A stretch of 64,000 nucleotides of DNA from Candidatus Methanimicrococcus labiotermitis (GTDB taxonomy: Archaea; Halobacteriota; Methanosarcinia; Methanosarcinales; Methanosarcinaceae), in the NCBI GenBank assembly GCA_009784005.1, contig WRCE01000001.1:1-64000 (forward strand). The letters are read 5' to 3'. A model generated the notes under the pieces. It was not told where the DNA came from. It made no database searches and was given only the letters and a program-made list of their open reading frames with translations. The number at the start of each line of letters is the position of its first letter. Within the stretch, counting starts at the first letter, position 1. Shown here in pieces: positions 7,703 through 42,196 of this stretch. Position numbers and translations under genes: made by a program.

Positions 7703-9202
7703 ATGTCAAATCGAAATTATGAAAAAAACGACTTTAACTCACCGGACGACTCATCAGACGTGAGAAAAGATCTAAGCCGCGTCAGCGAAAATATTTGGGA
7801 TATACCCATGTCTCATGCCGGCGGAATGAACGTTCCCGGCCGCATTTTTCTGTCGGAAAAACTGCTTGGGACAATCGACAGGGAAACAATTAATCAGGTC
7901 GCGAATGTTGCCAAACTGCCGGGCATTTTGGATTTTTCCATGGCGATGCCTGACGTTCACATGGGATACGGTTTTACAATCGGCGGCGTTGCCGCGTTCT
8001 GCCCCGAAGAAGGCGTGATCAGCCCGGGCGGCGTTGGTTTTGACATCAACTGCGGCGTTCGCCTGATGAAAACGAATCTTCAACTGGGTGATGTGGAACC
8101 TCATATGGAAAAACTGACGGATAAATTGTTTCACACAATACCGTCAGGTGTCGGCTCTAAAGGACAATTTAAAGTGACCGACGAAGAATTGACCCAAGCC
8201 TTTTTACACGGCTCTCAGTGGGCGGTGGAGGCGGGTTACGGCATTGAAAGCGACACCAAAAACTGTGAATCATACGGCTTTATGGAAGGCGGCAACCCCG
8301 AAAAAGTCGGAACGAAAGCCAGAAAAAGAGGCCGCCCCCAATTTGGAACACTCGGCAGCGGCAATCACTTTTTGGAAATTCAGTACATTGATAAAATTTA
8401 CGACCCTGCCGCAGCCGCCGCTTACGGCTTATCTGAGGGCCAAGTCACTGTCATGATCCACTGCGGCTCCCGCGGCGCCGGCCACCAGATTTGTACTGAC
8501 CACTTGCAGAATCTGAATCAGGCTGTCAAAAAGTACAAAATCAATGTCCCCGACATGCAGCTCGCTTGCGCGCCCGCGCAGTCCAAAGAAGCGCAGGATT
8601 ATTATGAAGCGATGATCTGCGGCGCGAATTACGCTTGGGCGAACCGTCAAATCATCATGCATTGGACGCGCGAGGTCTTTGAACGGTTCTACGGCAAAGA
8701 TACGGATGAATTGGGAATGGAACTGCTCTACGATGTGGCGCACAACGTGGCGAAATATGAAACCCACACAGTTGACGGCAAAAAGAAAGATGTTTACGTT
8801 CACCGAAAAGGCGCCACCCGCGCCTTCCCCGCCGGTCACAATGAAGTACCTTTGCAATACAGAGACGCCGGCCAGCCCGTCTTAATTCCGGGAAGCATGG
8901 GAACGCCGTCATTTATCTTAAAAGGCGGCCCCAATTCAATGTCGCTGTCTTTCGGCAGCGCTTGCCACGGCGCCGGCCGCGTGATGGGCCGCGGGAAAGC
9001 CAAAAACAACATGAGCGGCGAAGAAGTAAAAAAAGAACTGGCGCGCCAAGGCGTCACCGTGCGCGCGGAGAAAGCCGAAGTCATCGCGGAAGAGGCGCCG
9101 AGTGTTTACAAAAACAGCGACGACGTGGTCGATGTGGTGGACCGGCTCGGCATTGCCCAAAAGGTTGCCCGCTTGATTCCGGTCGGCGTGATCAAAGGGT
9201 GA
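7703..9202 (+). CDS. rtcB: RNA-splicing ligase RtcB
   Basis: MPDVHMGYGFTIGGVAAF, GGVGFDINCGVR, GTLGSGNHFLEIQ, HCGSRGAGHQ, GSACHGAGRVMGRGKA. Confidence 0.97.
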   Translation: MSNRNYEKNDFNSPDDSSDVRKDLSRVSENIWDIPMSHAGGMNVPGRIFLSEKLLGTIDRETINQVANVAKLPGILDFSMAMPDVHMGYGFTIGGVAAFCPEEGVISPGGVGFDINCGVRLMKTNLQLGDVEPHMEKLTDKLFHTIPSGVGSKGQFKVTDEELTQAFLHGSQWAVEAGYGIESDTKNCESYGFMEGGNPEKVGTKARKRGRPQFGTLGSGNHFLEIQYIDKIYDPAAAAAYGLSEGQVTVMIHCGSRGAGHQICTDHLQNLNQAVKKYKINVPDMQLACAPAQSKEAQDYYEAMICGANYAWANRQIIMHWTREVFERFYGKDTDELGMELLYDVAHNVAKYETHTVDGKKKDVYVHRKGATRAFPAGHNEVPLQYRDAGQPVLIPGSMGTPSFILKGGPNSMSLSFGSACHGAGRVMGRGKAKNNMSGEEVKKELARQGVTVRAEKAEVIAEEAPSVYKNSDDVVDVVDRLGIAQKVARLIPVGVIKG

Positions 9203-31143: not shown

Positions 31144-31938
31144 TTATTGTTTCTTTGAATTTTTGACCGCAATCACACCCATGTGATCGGCATGGAACGG
31201 CGCCAAATCCACTGTCCTCAAAACCTTAAACGAAACATCGTCGCTCTTCTCAAGAATCTTAATTTCCTCGCCGAAAATCTTTTTCGGGTTTTTGGCGACA
31301 TCAATGCTTCTGGCTTTTAAAGATAAAATCAAATAGCCGCCGTCTTTTAAGAAGTAAGCCGCGTTCCGGCAGGCGATTTCCGCCTGATTGGCTTGCGCGA
31401 CATCCTGAAAAATCACATCAACGGGCTCGACGATCGGGAAATAAAGTTCCGGCCGGGACGCGTCGGAAAAGATGGGAATGATGTTGCTGCGCTTTTCGGC
31501 AAGCATCACGAGGCTGCGCATCGGCTTTTCTGAGAATTCGACGGCGTAAACGACGCCGTTGCCGCCATCGGCTAAAATGTCAGAGACGTAACTGACCGTT
31601 GTTCCCGACGCGGCGCCTAAATAGAGGACGCGGGAATCGGAGCGAAGGGGAACAGGGAGGCGTTTTTGATACAAAGCGCCGAGTTTGCTTCGTTTCGGGT
31701 CCCATGAGCGGTATTCCGTGCCGTCGTCGGTGATGAGCGTTTTTTCGCCGTAAACGGAAATTCCGGGGGCGGCGTTTTTTGTGTAAATCTGAAACTTGCC
31801 TTTCGCGCGGCCTTCGTAAACGCCGCTTGAATATTGTGTTAAAAGGGAGCCGGTCTTTTCAGTCGCTTCGGTCGCCTTGTTCACTTTGTTCGCTTCGGTC
31901 TCCTTGTTCACTTTGTTCGTTTCGGTCGCTTTGGTCAT
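31144..31938 (-). CDS. flpA: Fibrillarin-like rRNA/tRNA 2'-O-methyltransferase with repeat N-terminus
   Basis: YRSWDPKRSKLGALYQKRL, VLYLGAASGTTVSYVSDI, VYAVEFSEKPMRSLV, DVIFQDVAQANQAEI. Confidence 0.95.
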   Translation of the reverse strand: MTKATETNKVNKETEANKVNKATEATEKTGSLLTQYSSGVYEGRAKGKFQIYTKNAAPGISVYGEKTLITDDGTEYRSWDPKRSKLGALYQKRLPVPLRSDSRVLYLGAASGTTVSYVSDILADGGNGVVYAVEFSEKPMRSLVMLAEKRSNIIPIFSDASRPELYFPIVEPVDVIFQDVAQANQAEIACRNAAYFLKDGGYLILSLKARSIDVAKNPKKIFGEEIKILEKSDDVSFKVLRTVDLAPFHADHMGVIAVKNSKKQ

Positions 31939-33317
31939 TTCGGCCCCTCCGCTTTTTGACAGGAAACGTTTTGTTTGATTTTGACGGCTTTGAGATTGAA
32001 ATCGGATTCGATTTCAGGCTTAAAAACGCCGGAATAGTAATCCGTCCGCGCCGCCAGACTGATTGCGGACGCGAAAGCTCTGGCAATTTTTCCGCGCGCC
32101 TTAAACGGCGCTGTATTCAAGACAGGGTGGCTGAAAATAATACCGTGTTTCGGAGACGGCGCATTGGCGCGCAGGTGTTTGACCATCGCTTTTTCGGCGC
32201 CCATCACCTGAATGCTGCCGGAAGGCATCGCCGCTAAGTTTTTTAAACCGCCGGCCATACTGAGCAGGCGCGCGCCCAAAACGACGCCGGCGACTTGAGA
32301 TAAATTCGGCGCCGTTTCTTTCATTTTGTCAGAAATAAATAACTCAACGGCCGCTTTTCGTTCATAAAGAGATAAAATGTCGCCCGCAAATCCCTGAAGC
32401 ATACGAAGGTCCTCTTCATTGGCAGGCGCGCCCATCAAAGACTGAGATGCCGATTCGGGAATTTCAGAAACGAAGCGGACATAAGCGTCGCCCGGCAAAT
32501 CCAATTCGGGATAATAAACGCTGTACCATTCCGTCAGCCGTTCCGTTAAATGATTGATCGTTTCATTCAAATCGTTGAGCGCTTCCACCGAATGGGTGAC
32601 CTTTTTGTCTTCGGAAAGCGCGGCGGAAAGCTGTTTTCGCGCAGAGCGAATGGCAACGTTACGAAGAAGAGAGAGATATTCGGAATCGGAGTCCGCCAAC
32701 CCCGCATCCGACGCAAGCTTTCTGTAATCCGGTTTTTCAGGTACGGCAGACGGTTTTAAAAAGGAAACCGCTTGAATATTTGGAATATTTGGATTATTTC
32801 GAATACTCTGAATATTTCGAATATTGGCGGACGCTTCGGGGGATAAAGCGGATGAAACGGCAATGAAATCATCCGCCAAAAAGTCAGGGTCTGCCGTGTC
32901 ATGTTTTCTGGGTTTGGCAGAAAAGCCGGACTTGGGTTCATAGTCAACGGTACCGAACCACGCTATAAATTGAATACTTTCAGACGATTTCGAGCCGGAT
33001 GGATTTGAACCGGACGGTTTCGAGCCGGATGGATTTGAACCGGACGGTTTCGGGCCGGACGGTTTCGAGCCGGATGGATTTGAGCCGGACGGTTTCGAAC
33101 CTGACGGTTTCGAGCCGGATGGATTTGAGCCGGACGGTTTTGAGCCGGACGGTTTCGAGCCGGACGGTTTCGAGCCGGACGGTTTCGAGCCGGACGGTTT
33201 CGAGCCGGATGGATTTGAGCCGGACGGTTTCGAGCCGGACGGTTTCGAGCCGGATGGATTTGAGCCGGACGGTTTTGAGCCGGATGGTTTCGAGCCGGAC
33301 GGATTTGAATCAGACAC
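31935..33317 (-). CDS. NOP5/NOP56 C/D box RNP protein with about 19 PSGSK/PSGSN pentapeptide repeats at N-terminus
   Basis: ETINHLTERLTEWYSVYYPELD, NLSQVAGVVLGARLLSMAGGLKNLAAMPSGSIQVMGAEKAMVKHLRANAPSPKHGIIFSHP. Confidence 0.93.
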   Translation of the reverse strand: MSDSNPSGSKPSGSKPSGSNPSGSKPSGSKPSGSNPSGSKPSGSKPSGSKPSGSKPSGSKPSGSNPSGSKPSGSKPSGSNPSGSKPSGPKPSGSNPSGSKPSGSNPSGSKSSESIQFIAWFGTVDYEPKSGFSAKPRKHDTADPDFLADDFIAVSSALSPEASANIRNIQSIRNNPNIPNIQAVSFLKPSAVPEKPDYRKLASDAGLADSDSEYLSLLRNVAIRSARKQLSAALSEDKKVTHSVEALNDLNETINHLTERLTEWYSVYYPELDLPGDAYVRFVSEIPESASQSLMGAPANEEDLRMLQGFAGDILSLYERKAAVELFISDKMKETAPNLSQVAGVVLGARLLSMAGGLKNLAAMPSGSIQVMGAEKAMVKHLRANAPSPKHGIIFSHPVLNTAPFKARGKIARAFASAISLAARTDYYSGVFKPEIESDFNLKAVKIKQNVSCQKAEGPK

Positions 33318-35009: not shown

Positions 35010-35888
35010 TTACTTTTCCTTTTTCAGAAACTTCTTTTTCGGCGCTTTCTTTTCAGCGGTCTCGTTTTTGGAGCCATCCTTCTTGGATGTATCCGCTTTT
35101 TCGGTTGCCGCCTCGGGCGCGTTTTCATCATGGTCGCCGTAAAACTCGCCGGCGAGCTTGTCATAAAGTTCGTCGTCGGAGTTGTCATTAAACTTGCTGA
35201 TAAGCTTGTCATAAAGCTCGTCATCGAATTTGCCGTCAAGCGTGTCATAGAGTTCGTCATCGAACTTGTCAAAGACGCACGCCGCTTTGTCCGGCGATTC
35301 GGAACCGGTGATCAATTCTTCTTCGTCTATGATATCGTCTTCGGGATGAACGGTGTCGGGGGTGGATGTATCGATGTCTTGGACCAAACCCGTTAATTCT
35401 TCAGAGAATTGTTCAACCAAATGCTCCTCGAAGTGGCCGGCGGAGCTTTGTTCATGGTCGCGGTCCAAATCCACGTAAACATAAGAACCTTCGTGGAAGT
35501 CATAGTCGTCGCAATAATCGCCTTGGCGCTTGCCGCAGTAAGCGTCATGAAGCGTCTGGTCGCACGGCGGAATATTGATGTTATAAGCCGCTCTCGCAAT
35601 CACGTGGCCGGCAACGGGCGCCGTCATGATGAGGAAAATGCCGATTGCGATTGCTTTGAATCCAAAAGGCGTAAAACCTTCCTGAATCAAAATGCCGAGA
35701 AGGACGAAAAAAGCGCCGGTTGTCGCGATTTTCGTTGTGGCGTGAAGCCTGTTGTAAACATCGGGTAGGCGGATTAAGCCAATCATTCCAATCAAAAGGT
35801 CAACGGCGCCGAAGAGAATGAAGAAGTAACTGACGTAAAGGCGAATGGTTGCGAAATCCAGCCAAGCGAGCAAAGATTCCGACATCAA
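35010..35888 (-). CDS. mrpG: Mrp Na+/H+ antiporter subunit G with long acidic C-terminal extension
   Basis: MnhG core GAVDLLIGMIGLIRLPDVYNRLHATTKIATTGAFFVLLG; overlaps mrpF by ATGA. Confidence 0.9.
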   Translation of the reverse strand: MMSESLLAWLDFATIRLYVSYFFILFGAVDLLIGMIGLIRLPDVYNRLHATTKIATTGAFFVLLGILIQEGFTPFGFKAIAIGIFLIMTAPVAGHVIARAAYNINIPPCDQTLHDAYCGKRQGDYCDDYDFHEGSYVYVDLDRDHEQSSAGHFEEHLVEQFSEELTGLVQDIDTSTPDTVHPEDDIIDEEELITGSESPDKAACVFDKFDDELYDTLDGKFDDELYDKLISKFNDNSDDELYDKLAGEFYGDHDENAPEAATEKADTSKKDGSKNETAEKKAPKKKFLKKEK

Positions 35889-36666: not shown

Positions 36667-38504
36667 CTGGGTGCCCTCTCAAGAACGGTTGTGATATATT
36701 CGGTCGGATCAAGGATCTGCGTCGCGATAATATTGGAAATTTCGTAAAGCGGTTCGGGGTAAATGCCCAAAAGAATTACAGTCCCGCACAAAGCAAGAAT
36801 CGGAAGCACGATTTCAAGAGAAAGGCCGTGCTTTTTCTTTGCCCCGTGCGCCCCTGCATGCGCGTGTGCCCCTGCTTGCGCGTGCGCCTCTGTCTGTGCG
36901 TGTGCCCCTGCTTGCGCGTGCGCCTCTGTCTGTGCATGTGCCCCTGCTTGCGCGTGCGCCTCTGTCTCTGCGTGTGCCCCCGCCCCTGCTTGTGCGTGTG
37001 CCTCCGCCCCTGCTCCATGCGCCTCTGTTCCATGCGCCTCTGCTCCATGCGCCTCTGCTCCATGCGCCTCTGTCAACGCGTGTGCCTCCGCCAACGCGTG
37101 TGCTGCTGCCGCGGCTGCTGCCCTTTCAGCGTCTCTGAGATGGCCTTTGTTTTCACCCCAAAAGACCGCAATCCATGTTCTGAACATGTAAAAGACGGTG
37201 ACGACAGCCATCACGACCGCGATCAGGAGCGGCAAAAAGAAACCATCGCTGACGGCTGCTTGGAACAAAGCGAATTTGGAAATGAAACCGCCCGTCGGCG
37301 GGAAACCGGCAACGGACATCGTGCCGACCAAAAATACCGCGGATAAGAGCGGCAGGACCGTTATCAAGCCCCCCATCTTTCGAAGGTCGCGCGTATGCGT
37401 TTCATGAATAATGCCGCCGGCGACCAGGAAAAGCATTGATTTGGCAATGGCGTGGTTCACCAAATACATAATCGCCGCCGTGATCGCGCCGATTGTTCCA
37501 AAGGATAATCCAAGCAAAACATAGCCGATCTGAGACACACTGGAATACGCTAAAACGCGCTTCAGGTCCGCTTGTCCCATGGCGGATATCGCCCCGACCG
37601 CGATTGTCAGGAGGGCGAAGAACATGAGAATCGGGAGGAAAAAGGTTTTCGCCGGCGCCAAAACCAAGAACAAAACGCGAAGCATGCAATACGCGCCGAC
37701 CTTAATCATAATACCGCTCAGCATGGCTGAAATAGGCGTCGGCGCTGTCGGGTGAACATCGGGCAGCCAGAAGTGAAGCGGAACAAGCGCCGCTTTGTTG
37801 CCGAAAACAACAATAAAGAGAAGCGCTGCGCCGTAAACAACCCACGGAACGGTTCCGGCGTCGTCCAAAACACGAATCTTTGCCGCTATGTCGGCCATGT
37901 TCAGTGAGCCGATCGTCGCGTAAATCGTCGCGATGGCCGCCAGCATCAAAAAGGAGCCGAGCATGCCGAGGAGCATGTATTTGTAAGTCGCCTCCAGCTT
38001 ATGCGAAGTGTCCGTGACGTTTAATGATTCGTTTGCCATAATCAAGCCGGCTGATGCCAAAAACATGATTTCAAAGAAAACGAACAAATTGAACAAATCG
38101 CCCGTGACGAAAATACCGAAAATGCCGCCCAGCATCATGAAATAAAGCGGATAATAGCTGTTGCTGAGGGACTTCTTTTCAATGTAATCGAAAGAGTAAA
38201 TCATGACCCAAAGAGAAATGAACGCGGTCAATAAAACAAGCAGCGCTGACAGCATGTCGGCGGCCAGAACGATGCCGTATTTGCCGAATTCCCCGATATC
38301 GTAAACCTGAATGCCTTGTGTGTAAACGGTCCAAAACAGCAAAGCTGAAAGTCCCAAAAGGGCAAGAGAGGCAAGAACGGCCAAAACTTTTTGAAAGGTC
38401 GGGCTGCTTTTTATGAAAAGCATAATCGGCGCCATCAAAAGACAGACGGCGACCGGCAAAACAACGGCGTTGCTTTGAAAAAATTCTAATAACCAGTCGG
38501 TCAT
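36663..38504 (-). CDS. mrpD: Mrp Na+/H+ antiporter subunit D with Ala/His-rich repeat insert
   Basis: NuoM/MrpD-type protein (LKRVLAYSSVSQIGYVLLGL, KAALVPLHFWLPDVHPTAPTPISAMLSG). Confidence 0.93.
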   Translation of the reverse strand: MTDWLLEFFQSNAVVLPVAVCLLMAPIMLFIKSSPTFQKVLAVLASLALLGLSALLFWTVYTQGIQVYDIGEFGKYGIVLAADMLSALLVLLTAFISLWVMIYSFDYIEKKSLSNSYYPLYFMMLGGIFGIFVTGDLFNLFVFFEIMFLASAGLIMANESLNVTDTSHKLEATYKYMLLGMLGSFLMLAAIATIYATIGSLNMADIAAKIRVLDDAGTVPWVVYGAALLFIVVFGNKAALVPLHFWLPDVHPTAPTPISAMLSGIMIKVGAYCMLRVLFLVLAPAKTFFLPILMFFALLTIAVGAISAMGQADLKRVLAYSSVSQIGYVLLGLSFGTIGAITAAIMYLVNHAIAKSMLFLVAGGIIHETHTRDLRKMGGLITVLPLLSAVFLVGTMSVAGFPPTGGFISKFALFQAAVSDGFFLPLLIAVVMAVVTVFYMFRTWIAVFWGENKGHLRDAERAAAAAAAHALAEAHALTEAHGAEAHGAEAHGTEAHGAGAEAHAQAGAGAHAETEAHAQAGAHAQTEAHAQAGAHAQTEAHAQAGAHAHAGAHGAKKKHGLSLEIVLPILALCGTVILLGIYPEPLYEISNIIATQILDPTEYITTVLERAPR

Positions 38505-38920
38505 CCGTGGAGCCTCCTGAGTTCATCGACGTCGGTTGTCCCGTACTCTTCACTGATACGGTAAGCCAACGTCAGTAATATGGCTGTGGTCGCGAAGCTG
38601 ATAACGATGGCTGTCAACACAAGCGCCTGCGTCAGCGGGTCGGAATAATTGACGCTGTCCGCGGCTCCCGTTATGACCGGCGACAAAACGCCGCCTGCAA
38701 AATCATCAGCGAAAATGAAACCGGCGTGCTCATTAACGGAGTCCGTCAAAATGGCGACAAGGGGCCCCGTGAAAATGCCGGACGTCACAATCGTTAAGTT
38801 AACGGAGTGGCTGATTAAGCAGAATCCGACCACGATTTTCATAATGTCGCGGCGAAGGATCATGTAGACGCCGATTCCGAAAAGGAGAGAAATGGTCAAA
38901 GCTGTCAATACTTCAGTCAT
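38501..38920 (-). CDS. mrpC: Mrp Na+/H+ antiporter subunit C
   Basis: NuoK-like: GIGVYMILRRDIMKIVVGFCLISHSVNLTIV; DPLTQALVLTAIVISFATTA. Confidence 0.93.
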   Translation of the reverse strand: MTEVLTALTISLLFGIGVYMILRRDIMKIVVGFCLISHSVNLTIVTSGIFTGPLVAILTDSVNEHAGFIFADDFAGGVLSPVITGAADSVNYSDPLTQALVLTAIVISFATTAILLTLAYRISEEYGTTDVDELRRLHG

Positions 38921-39048
38921 TGCGCTTCCTCCGTCATTGCGATTCCGCCGCTTTTGCGGTTTACCGTCATTGCGATTCCGCCGCTTTTGCGGTTTACCGT
39001 CATTGCAATTCCGCCGCTTTTGCGGTTTTCGCTGCGGTTTTCAGTCAT
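38917..39048 (-). CDS. 43-aa repeat ORF between mrpB and mrpC (MTENRSENRKSGGIAMTVNRKSGGIAMTVNRKSGGIAMTEEAQ)
   Basis: ATG overlaps mrpB TGA (39045-39048) and its TGA overlaps mrpC ATG (38917-38920); codon-by-codon reading; 33-bp repeats. Confidence 0.5.
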   Translation of the reverse strand: MTENRSENRKSGGIAMTVNRKSGGIAMTVNRKSGGIAMTEEAQ

Positions 39049-39614
39049 TGCGCTTCCTCCGCTTTTGCGGCTTCCGCTGCTTGTAAAAGCCGCGCCGGCG
39101 TTTTCGGTCTTAAATCCACGTCTTCCGTTTCATCGCGGCTGTCGACGTTTTCAGACATCTTGATGATGACGGATTTCGGCTCTTTGACTTTGTCGGAAGC
39201 GATGCTTGTAATGATAAACAGCAAGGCGCCGATTACGGTGAAATAAACGCCGATGTCAAACATCATCGCCGATGCCAATTCGAAATGGCCGATGTGTATG
39301 CCAAAGACATCAATGTAGAAGAACTGAAATGCGCTTCTGAAATAATTGTAATTGACAAGCATCGGCGCAATGGCTGTCAGAGACGCGAACAGCAGTCCGT
39401 AACTTGCCCAAGTCAGCCAATTCGGCCGCAGCCTTGTATTTATGTATTTCATGCCGTAAATGACATACACCAGCGCAATGCCGCAAACGAATAAAACGCC
39501 GCCGACGAAACCGCCGCCGGGATAGTTCGCGCCGTTGAGCATCAAGTAAATGGAGAACAGTATGCTGATTAAGAGGACGCCTCTTGAGATTGTTTTCGTT
39601 ATAATCGAGGTCAT
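39045..39614 (-). CDS. mrpB: Mrp Na+/H+ antiporter subunit B
   Basis: MnhB-like: LMLNGANYPGGGFVGGVLFVCGIALVYVIYG. Confidence 0.93.
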   Translation of the reverse strand: MTSIITKTISRGVLLISILFSIYLMLNGANYPGGGFVGGVLFVCGIALVYVIYGMKYINTRLRPNWLTWASYGLLFASLTAIAPMLVNYNYFRSAFQFFYIDVFGIHIGHFELASAMMFDIGVYFTVIGALLFIITSIASDKVKEPKSVIIKMSENVDSRDETEDVDLRPKTPARLLQAAEAAKAEEAQ

Positions 39615-42196
39615 TTTCTGTCTCCTTTGTTATCAAGATTTTGAAGGGCTTGGCCGATATGCCGTTCGCCTGAATTTTTGTCCGGCGACTCTGTGTCGCA
39701 CGGCACATGCCCGAATGCGGGGTTTCCGCCGGTCGGCAGGCCGGGGATCGGGCAGCTCGGGATAAAGACGCCCTGCGCGTTCGTTTCATTTAAAGAGGTC
39801 TCGGCATCTGTGTCTTCTTTGTTCGTCGCGAAGCGGCTTTGAATCAAATTGTAGACGGCCAACGCGGCAATCGCGAGAACGGAAATTTCACCCAGCGTGT
39901 CATACCCTCTGAAATCGACGACGATGACGTTAACGATGTTGCGGCCGCCCGTGAGTTCAACACCTCTGTCTATGAAATAGTGAGAGAAGGATTCAAACGG
40001 CGCCGCCAAATTTGCTCCCATCAGTAAGAAGAATAAAACGGCGCTGCAGCTGAGGGCGATAAGCGCGTTTCTGATTTTGACGTTTCTTCGCTCGGGGCGA
40101 ACGGCTTCTTTGTTCCAAAGTTTCATGATGACAATCAAAAAGATGATTGTTGTAAGCGTTTCAACACAAAGCTGCGTCATGGCTAAGTCGGGAGCTTTGA
40201 GGTACGCGAAAAGCAGCGCGACGAAGAGGCCGCAAGCGGACGCCGCTAAAATCATCGGGATGTATCGCGGCAAAAACGAAGCGCCCCATGCCGTCAAAAT
40301 AATCAGGAGGAACAAAATAAGCTCAGGTATCGCGATTTTGTAAATCAGGGCGGGTGAGAAAATCGACATTCCCGAAAGGACGGCAAACCCGAGCGGAAGC
40401 ATGACCATGAAAACGGCGAACACCAGCATCACTTGCAAATATCCGCGCGGCGGCCCTTTTTGAAGCAGGCGGCCGAATGTGGCGCCGAATCTGAACGCGT
40501 TATTAACCATTCCGTTGTAAATGTAATTCAAACTGATTTTGGGATACCTTTCATTGAAACGGACTTGCCAACGAGCGATTTTATCATATCCGTTATAAAC
40601 CAATATGCCGAGGGCGAATGTAATAATCGTCATGAATAGCGCGGGCGTCAACCCGTGCCACAGATAAACGTGCATATGTGCCGCGCCGGGCGCAATGGCG
40701 TTCACGGCCGGCTGGACGAAAGCGTCAACAAAAGGCGTCGGAACCAAACCAATCGCGATGATTAAGACCGCCAAAAGAGCCGGCGGCGCCAGCAATACCC
40801 ACGACGGGTCATGCACATGCTTTGGAACATCGGGGTCGGTTGTTCTTTTTCCCATGAAAATTTTGATGATAAGACGGAAAGAATAAGCGAACGTTAAAAC
40901 GCCGCCGACGACCGCAAGAACAGGGATTAAGTAGGCGATGCCGCCACCCAGCGCGGTTGCCATGTCAACGGATGTCTCATAAAAGATTTCTTTGCTCAAA
41001 AAACCATTAAGCGGCGGGATGCCGGCCATTGCCGCCGCGGCGATGACCATTAAGATAAACGTTATCGGCATCTCTTTTCGCAGGCCGCCCATTTTGCGAA
41101 TGTCACGCGTATGCAGTTCGTGGGCGACAATGCCGACAAGCAGGAAGAGACAGGCTTTGAACGTCGCATGGTTCAGCAGATGGAAAACGGCAGCAGGGAC
41201 GCCGAGCGCAGGGTTGGCGTATGTGGTAAACCCAAACATTGCCATGAGATAAGCCAGCTGGCTGATGGTTGAAAACGCGAGAATCGCTTTGAGGTCGGTT
41301 TGCCGAAGCGCTAAGAATCCGGCGACGACCATTGTGACCAAACCGAGACAAGAAACGAGGATGAACCAATCAATCGTTCCCGAAAACATCGGATGCAAAC
41401 GGGCGACGAGAAATACGCCGGCCTTGACCATTGTGGCTGAGTGCAGGAAAGCGCTGACGGGCGTCGGGGCTTCCATGGCGTTCGGCAGCCAAATAAAAAA
41501 GGGACCTTGCGCCGATTTGGCGAGAGCCCCAATCATGATGAGAAGAAGCGTGACCGTGAACAACGGGCTGTTTTTAACGGCCGAAATCGCCGCGGGGTTT
41601 GTCAGCATTTCGGAAATGCCGTATGTGCCGGTGATGCTGTAAAGGAACATGAAACCGACGAACATGAAAAGGCCGGCGCCGCCTGTAATGAGGAGCGCTT
41701 TTGTGGCGCCGTAAATTGATTCTTTGGTTTTTCTGTAATAACCGATAAGAAGGAATGAACTGATGCTCGTCAGCTCCCAAAAGACAAACAGCTGAATCAG
41801 GTTGTCGGAAAACGCGACACCGAGCATGGAACCCATGAAGACGAGGAGATACTGATAGTAGCGAACCAGATCTTCGTCTTTTGACAAATATTTAGTGGAA
41901 TACGCCAGAATCAATATGCCGATAAACGACACGATGGCGCCGAGAAGAACCGCGAGACCGTCGGCGTAAAACGAAATGTTGACGGAAAGCCCCGGAATCC
42001 AAGAAACCGCGCCGGCCGGATAATGACCGTCGGCGACGGACGGAATGAGCGAAGCGATAAGAATAAAGCAAACAGCTGCCACTGCGGCCGCGAACCATCC
42101 GACTTTATCTTTCAAAACCTTGTAAGCAAGCGGTACCGCCGGCGCCATCAGAAAAGGCAATAAAACGATGAACGCTATAAAATAAAATGTATCCAT
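39611..42196 (-). CDS. mrpA: Mrp Na+/H+ antiporter subunit A
   Basis: NuoL/MrpA-type protein; start at MDTFYFIAFIVLLP rather than the upstream ORF start. Confidence 0.93.
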   Translation of the reverse strand: MDTFYFIAFIVLLPFLMAPAVPLAYKVLKDKVGWFAAAVAAVCFILIASLIPSVADGHYPAGAVSWIPGLSVNISFYADGLAVLLGAIVSFIGILILAYSTKYLSKDEDLVRYYQYLLVFMGSMLGVAFSDNLIQLFVFWELTSISSFLLIGYYRKTKESIYGATKALLITGGAGLFMFVGFMFLYSITGTYGISEMLTNPAAISAVKNSPLFTVTLLLIMIGALAKSAQGPFFIWLPNAMEAPTPVSAFLHSATMVKAGVFLVARLHPMFSGTIDWFILVSCLGLVTMVVAGFLALRQTDLKAILAFSTISQLAYLMAMFGFTTYANPALGVPAAVFHLLNHATFKACLFLLVGIVAHELHTRDIRKMGGLRKEMPITFILMVIAAAAMAGIPPLNGFLSKEIFYETSVDMATALGGGIAYLIPVLAVVGGVLTFAYSFRLIIKIFMGKRTTDPDVPKHVHDPSWVLLAPPALLAVLIIAIGLVPTPFVDAFVQPAVNAIAPGAAHMHVYLWHGLTPALFMTIITFALGILVYNGYDKIARWQVRFNERYPKISLNYIYNGMVNNAFRFGATFGRLLQKGPPRGYLQVMLVFAVFMVMLPLGFAVLSGMSIFSPALIYKIAIPELILFLLIILTAWGASFLPRYIPMILAASACGLFVALLFAYLKAPDLAMTQLCVETLTTIIFLIVIMKLWNKEAVRPERRNVKIRNALIALSCSAVLFFLLMGANLAAPFESFSHYFIDRGVELTGGRNIVNVIVVDFRGYDTLGEISVLAIAALAVYNLIQSRFATNKEDTDAETSLNETNAQGVFIPSCPIPGLPTGGNPAFGHVPCDTESPDKNSGERHIGQALQNLDNKGDRK

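Follow-up and report, generated by a model that had tools for sequence, protein, structure and literature searches.

Probable tandem copying of the stop-start junction between mrpB and mrpC in a single Methanimicrococcus-like lineage

The mrpB and mrpC genes in the 64-kb stretch of DNA analyzed here (the window) are separated by an array of short repeats that is best explained, with a probability of roughly 75%, by the mrpB/mrpC stop-start junction having been amplified in tandem in this lineage alone, with mrpC started at the last of the copied Shine-Dalgarno (SD)-ATGA sites and the small peptide encoded across the array likely functionless. The expansion is most likely neutral or nearly neutral and specific to this species. 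The window belongs to a single draft assembly (1.69 Mb in 62 contigs) that is Methanimicrococcus-like, and the closest named match to its MrpB is from a Methanimicrococcus sp. assembly (72% identity, locus L031).

Pfam matches identify the genes flanking the array as mrpB (MnhB, 1.4e-28) and mrpC (Oxidored_q2, 1.1e-26), and further matches around them to MNHE, MrpF, PhaG, and Proton_antipo indicate an Mrp-type antiporter operon running from mrpA to mrpG. Both genes lie on the minus strand and are intact: mrpB (39045-39614) encodes an MnhB-type antiporter subunit of 189 aa, within the range of 179-206 aa found in genus relatives, and mrpC (38501-38920) encodes a protein of 139 aa that aligns with genus relatives from residue 1. 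Since both proteins are full length by this comparison, a truncated MrpB tail and a misplaced MrpC start were rejected as explanations. At every other mrp junction in the window the neighboring genes share 4 nt, ATGA at mrpA/B, C/D, D/E, and E/F and TTGA at mrpF/G, in agreement with an earlier model-generated reading of the sequence (the sequence-only reading). The direct distance from mrpB to mrpC is 124 nt, which falls outside the stop-to-start range of termination-reinitiation (about -8 to +10 nt). The intervening space holds a bridge ORF of 43 codons (38917-39048, minus strand), present exactly as the sequence-only reading had claimed, which encodes the 43-aa peptide MTENRSENRKSGGIAMTVNRKSGGIAMTVNRKSGGIAMTEEAQ; its ATG shares bases with the mrpB TGA and its TGA with the mrpC ATG, so that mrpB/bridge and bridge/mrpC each form a 4-nt ATGA overlap within that range. 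A GGAGG motif is found 7 nt 5' of both the bridge and the mrpC ATG, as is common but not universal in termination-reinitiation.

Tandem Repeats Finder reports a period of 33 bp, 3.0 copies, and 98% matches at 38931-39028, and the copies lie head to tail with high identity as in a minisatellite-type tandem array. The array extends further when followed by its stop-start sites, for there are five ATGA sites, with ATGs at 39048, 39003, 38970, 38937, and 38920 (spacings of 45, 33, 33, and 17 nt), and the 33-nt stretches around all five are similar. The internal unit aligns without gaps to 39040-39072, which comprises the mrpB end and an mrpC-like start, with 28/33 identities, a value reached by none of 20000 dinucleotide shuffles, the best of which gave 24. 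Read from its sequence, the 33-bp unit is a degenerate copy of the junction, combining the last ∼24 nt of mrpB, including its GGAGG SD, with ATGACTGAA of mrpC, and the array as a whole is five copies of a single SD-ATGA module. All five copies are on the minus strand. Copy 1 (39040-39072) is the mrpB 3' end followed by ATGACTGAA and carries the ancestral sequence with GGAGG. Copies 2 (38995-39027), 3 (38962-38994), and 4 (38929-38961) are internal and have GGCGG in its place, copy 2 being offset from copy 1 by 45 nt (33 + 12), and copy 5 (38912-38944) is at the mrpC start. The last spacing of 17 nt corresponds to the ancestral 33-nt unit with 16 nt deleted and 0 mismatches, and through the loss of these 16 nt in copy 5 the bridge ORF and the mrpC ATG are in different frames. 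Between copies 2 and 3, both internal, the only difference is ATT/ATC, which is silent in the bridge frame, although this concerns one site only. The sequence-only reading had proposed duplication of the junction, with a repeat placed between the two copies; the duplication is borne out, but the 28/33 identity of the unit with the junction leaves no separate repeat to be inserted. The CCGC/GCGG hairpin that it had pointed out in each unit is present, and because it occurs already in the first copy, at the mrpB end, it was inherited with the copied sequence. A structured RNA was rejected, since the region folds no better than shuffled sequences (z = -1.0) and Rfam gives no match up to E = 1 across 38400-39700.

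The strength of the SD sites was calculated with an anti-SD sequence, GATCACCTCCT, taken from 16S genes of genus relatives because the 16S gene of the source genome was not found in its assembly; the 16S genes of two genus relatives have GGATCACCTCCT at their 3' ends. The GGAGG preceding the first ATGA, at which the bridge ORF starts (39056-39060, minus strand), and the GGAGG 7 nt before the mrpC ATG (38928-38932, minus strand) both pair with an energy of -9.5 kcal/mol, compared with -5.0 to -6.1 kcal/mol for GGCGG in the three internal copies and -6.3 to -10.5 kcal/mol at the other mrp starts. The ATGAs of the bridge ORF and of mrpC are thus predicted to be good start sites and the internal ATGAs weaker ones. 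The sequence ATGACTGA at the mrpC start (38912-38944, minus strand) has stops in both of the frames not used by mrpC, one TGA giving a 4-nt and the other an 8-nt overlap, so that an out-of-frame ribosome would be halted at the mrpC start either way; the 8-nt version of the mrpB/mrpC overlap is in use in relative G001.

Comparison of this junction with related genomes, which the sequence-only reading had named as a check, covered 29 relatives (4 of the genus, 24 of the family, and 1 of the order). Every one of them has a direct mrpB/mrpC overlap, which measures 4 nt in most and 8 nt in some (in one relative with two possible starts the overlap is either 1 or 4 nt), and none of the 29 has an insert. 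An SD-like sequence lies inside the mrpB end in nearly all of them. The bridge peptide was found in one of 112 family genomes, namely that of the window itself. A search of 60 genomes for the stacked SD-ATGA pattern gave one match in the source genome, at this junction, and one match in each of two of the 59 other genomes, where the sequences look unrelated and are not repeats. Within the collections searched, the event is therefore confined to this lineage. A dispersed or mobile repeat was also rejected, as the source genome contains no second array of the 33-bp unit.

A parsimonious sketch of events can be drawn from the arrangement of the copies. The copied module would have been ∼33 nt long and have run from the SD-containing 3' end of mrpB through the ATGA into the first mrpC codons; slippage or unequal recombination may have amplified it, in a genome where tandem arrays abound. 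An initial 33-nt duplication would place an upstream ATG in frame with mrpC and create an N-terminal extension of 11 aa; a 16-nt deletion in the last copy would then shift the frame, so that the extension ends on the mrpC ATGA and becomes a separate ORF; and the middle copy would have diverged and subsequently been amplified. Some translation of the bridge ORF is probable, given its start codon at the mrpB stop and the good SD in front of it. The start of mrpC at the last SD-ATGA could occur by termination-reinitiation after the bridge ORF or by direct initiation at the intact SD, and the peptide itself is most likely incidental and without function.

The retention of both ATGA overlaps means that a ribosome could pass from mrpB to the bridge ORF and on to mrpC, and the sequence-only reading had taken this as translational coupling kept through the expansion, giving a new coupler peptide. 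The overlaps stand, but the implied functional role does not follow from them. In a simple model of this one junction, with flat priors and the insert left out, random tandem duplications with units of 12-60 nt gave at least one stop-start overlap leading up to the mrpC start in 64% of cases, an in-frame extension of MrpC in 34%, and neither in ∼2%; with one indel added, 62% were coupled, 30% fused, and ∼8% neither. Units of 33 nt with one indel yielded a single bridge ORF as observed in 35%, a fusion in 60%, and neither in ∼5%. In more than 90% of simulated junction duplications mrpC is thus left coupled or fused, because every copy brings its own ATGA, and within this model the simulation shows that the double overlap would need no special explanation. 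Kept coupling, as the default result of junction duplication, is therefore not evidence of selection at mrpB/mrpC, and the simulation cautions more generally that coupling which survives duplication of a coupling site should not count as evidence of function. Neither can unit counts discriminate, since 33 nt is 11 codons and a change in unit number cannot break the frame.

The alternative that survives best, though we regard it as unlikely, is that the ORF has been kept open by selection to carry ribosomes over the 124-nt gap and keep MrpB and MrpC in step, in which case its translation would matter and not its peptide. This reading is favored by the 4-nt overlap and strong SD at each end, by the conservation of the direct overlap in all relatives compared, and by experiments in Haloferax volcanii and Escherichia coli in which gaps of ∼20 nt nearly abolish coupling, together with the enrichment of overlaps among subunits of complexes (PMC10666635); given such a distance limit, an untranslated gap of 124 nt would uncouple two subunits of one complex, which leaves room for selection. 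Against it stands the simulated default, and the insert is known from one species only. Moreover, mrpC has its own intact GGAGG and could start alone, and the bridge may thus be unnecessary for its start. An assembly artefact, in which the unit number or the whole array is wrong in the draft, is very improbable: assembly from short reads often collapses short tandem repeats, but the 128-nt insert is about one short read long and its copies differ at several places, which presumably helped correct assembly, both flanking genes are intact, and a miscount of whole units would not alter the frame. An action of the 43-aa repeat peptide itself, for instance on the Mrp complex, is extremely improbable. 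In its favor is an open ORF with a good start context; against it, the sequence is simply the mrpB end in another frame, repeated, the peptide has no homologue in any of the 111 other family genomes searched and no NCBIfam match, and its Pfam score for DUF2158 (21.7 bits against a cut-off of 22.3, with no single stretch passing) was judged a chance resemblance of the repeated KSGGxxMTV string, so that membership of this small protein family was rejected.

The preferred reading, amplification of the junction, places the locus beside known cases of ATGA termination-reinitiation in archaea and bacteria (PMC6728339, PMC10666635), with which it shares the 4-nt ATGA, an SD in the 3' end of the upstream gene, and products that are subunits of one complex. 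It differs in that the module is present fivefold with an extra small ORF between the genes, and in that coupling is predicted here from sequence. Reinitiation in H. volcanii and E. coli requires that the genes overlap or lie very close together (PMC10666635), and 15 nt of upstream gene are sometimes enough for it; the contribution of the SD is variable, and in Haloferax initiation on 5' leaders does not make use of it (PMC6728339). Methanosarcinaceae may differ from Haloferax, the source of the archaeal coupling data. By analogy with these systems, ribosomes may resume translation on the bridge ORF after the mrpB stop and a second time on mrpC, or mrpC may be initiated directly from its SD. 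A further parallel is the short upstream ORF coupled to a downstream gene, as in iraD (PMC5574718). Both are short ORFs in a position where translating them could enhance translation of the following gene, but the ORF at mrpB/mrpC is a spacer that arose from repeats inside an operon and shows no sign of regulation. If translated, the bridge would provide a natural test case for the passage of ribosomes across the gap between two subunit genes and for the origin of small ORFs in operons, from what is so far a single case in a single genome. It is conceivable, albeit doubtful, that tandem copying of SD-ATGA modules spreads an overlap over more than 100 nt with coupling never lost, because each copy has its own stop-start signal, and that bridge ORFs are a birth route of small operon genes that are kept first for passing ribosomes on.

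The window is rich in tandem repeats, with 85 non-redundant arrays occupying 6.2 kb or about 10% of its sequence, many of them intergenic with periods of 10-20 bp, and an array at mrpB/mrpC, although as a repeat far outside what chance would produce, is therefore unsurprising; relative G001 has a single tandem array in its 12-kb mrp region. A search of the literature found nothing on tandem repeats in Methanimicrococcus. By chance one third of periods are multiples of three. In the window such periods account for 25 of the 34 arrays inside ORFs and 19 of the 51 outside, and the 33-bp period fits a translated array, which is mild evidence at best. Arrays in the window show no clear tendency to lie near gene ends: those within 60 nt number 14 against 8.9 expected (p 0.03), with no excess at 100 or 150 nt. 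Repeats also occur elsewhere in mrp genes: the mrpB tail of one relative (L049, G005) has repeats of its own, in MrpD of the window the main domain is followed by a long repeat insert rich in Ala, His, and Glu (GAHAQTEAHAQA...; 36845-37103, minus strand), mrpD of another relative (L047, G004) contains an 18-bp array at 8397-8492, and in MrpG of the window a long acidic repeat tail (DDELYDKL...) precedes a Lys-rich end (35010-35250, minus strand).

Two further arrays on the minus strand likewise start at an overlapping gene junction and have a period that is a multiple of three. The first, of 323 bp (32986-33308, units of 15/45 bp), encodes PSGSK/PSGSN repeats that begin immediately behind the start codon of a protein of 460 aa; we take this protein to be NOP5-like, and the start of its gene has an 8-nt overlap with the preceding one. 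The open frames of three genus relatives are about 80-130 aa shorter than that of its gene (31935-33317), and the repeat extension thus looks specific to the source genome. The second, with a 27-bp unit (31863-31937) encoding TEANKVNK-like repeats, starts at an ATGA junction and forms an in-frame N-terminal extension of the downstream protein, presumably fibrillarin-like. Both arrays are fused to the downstream protein, whereas at mrpB/mrpC the 16-nt deletion parts the array from mrpC.
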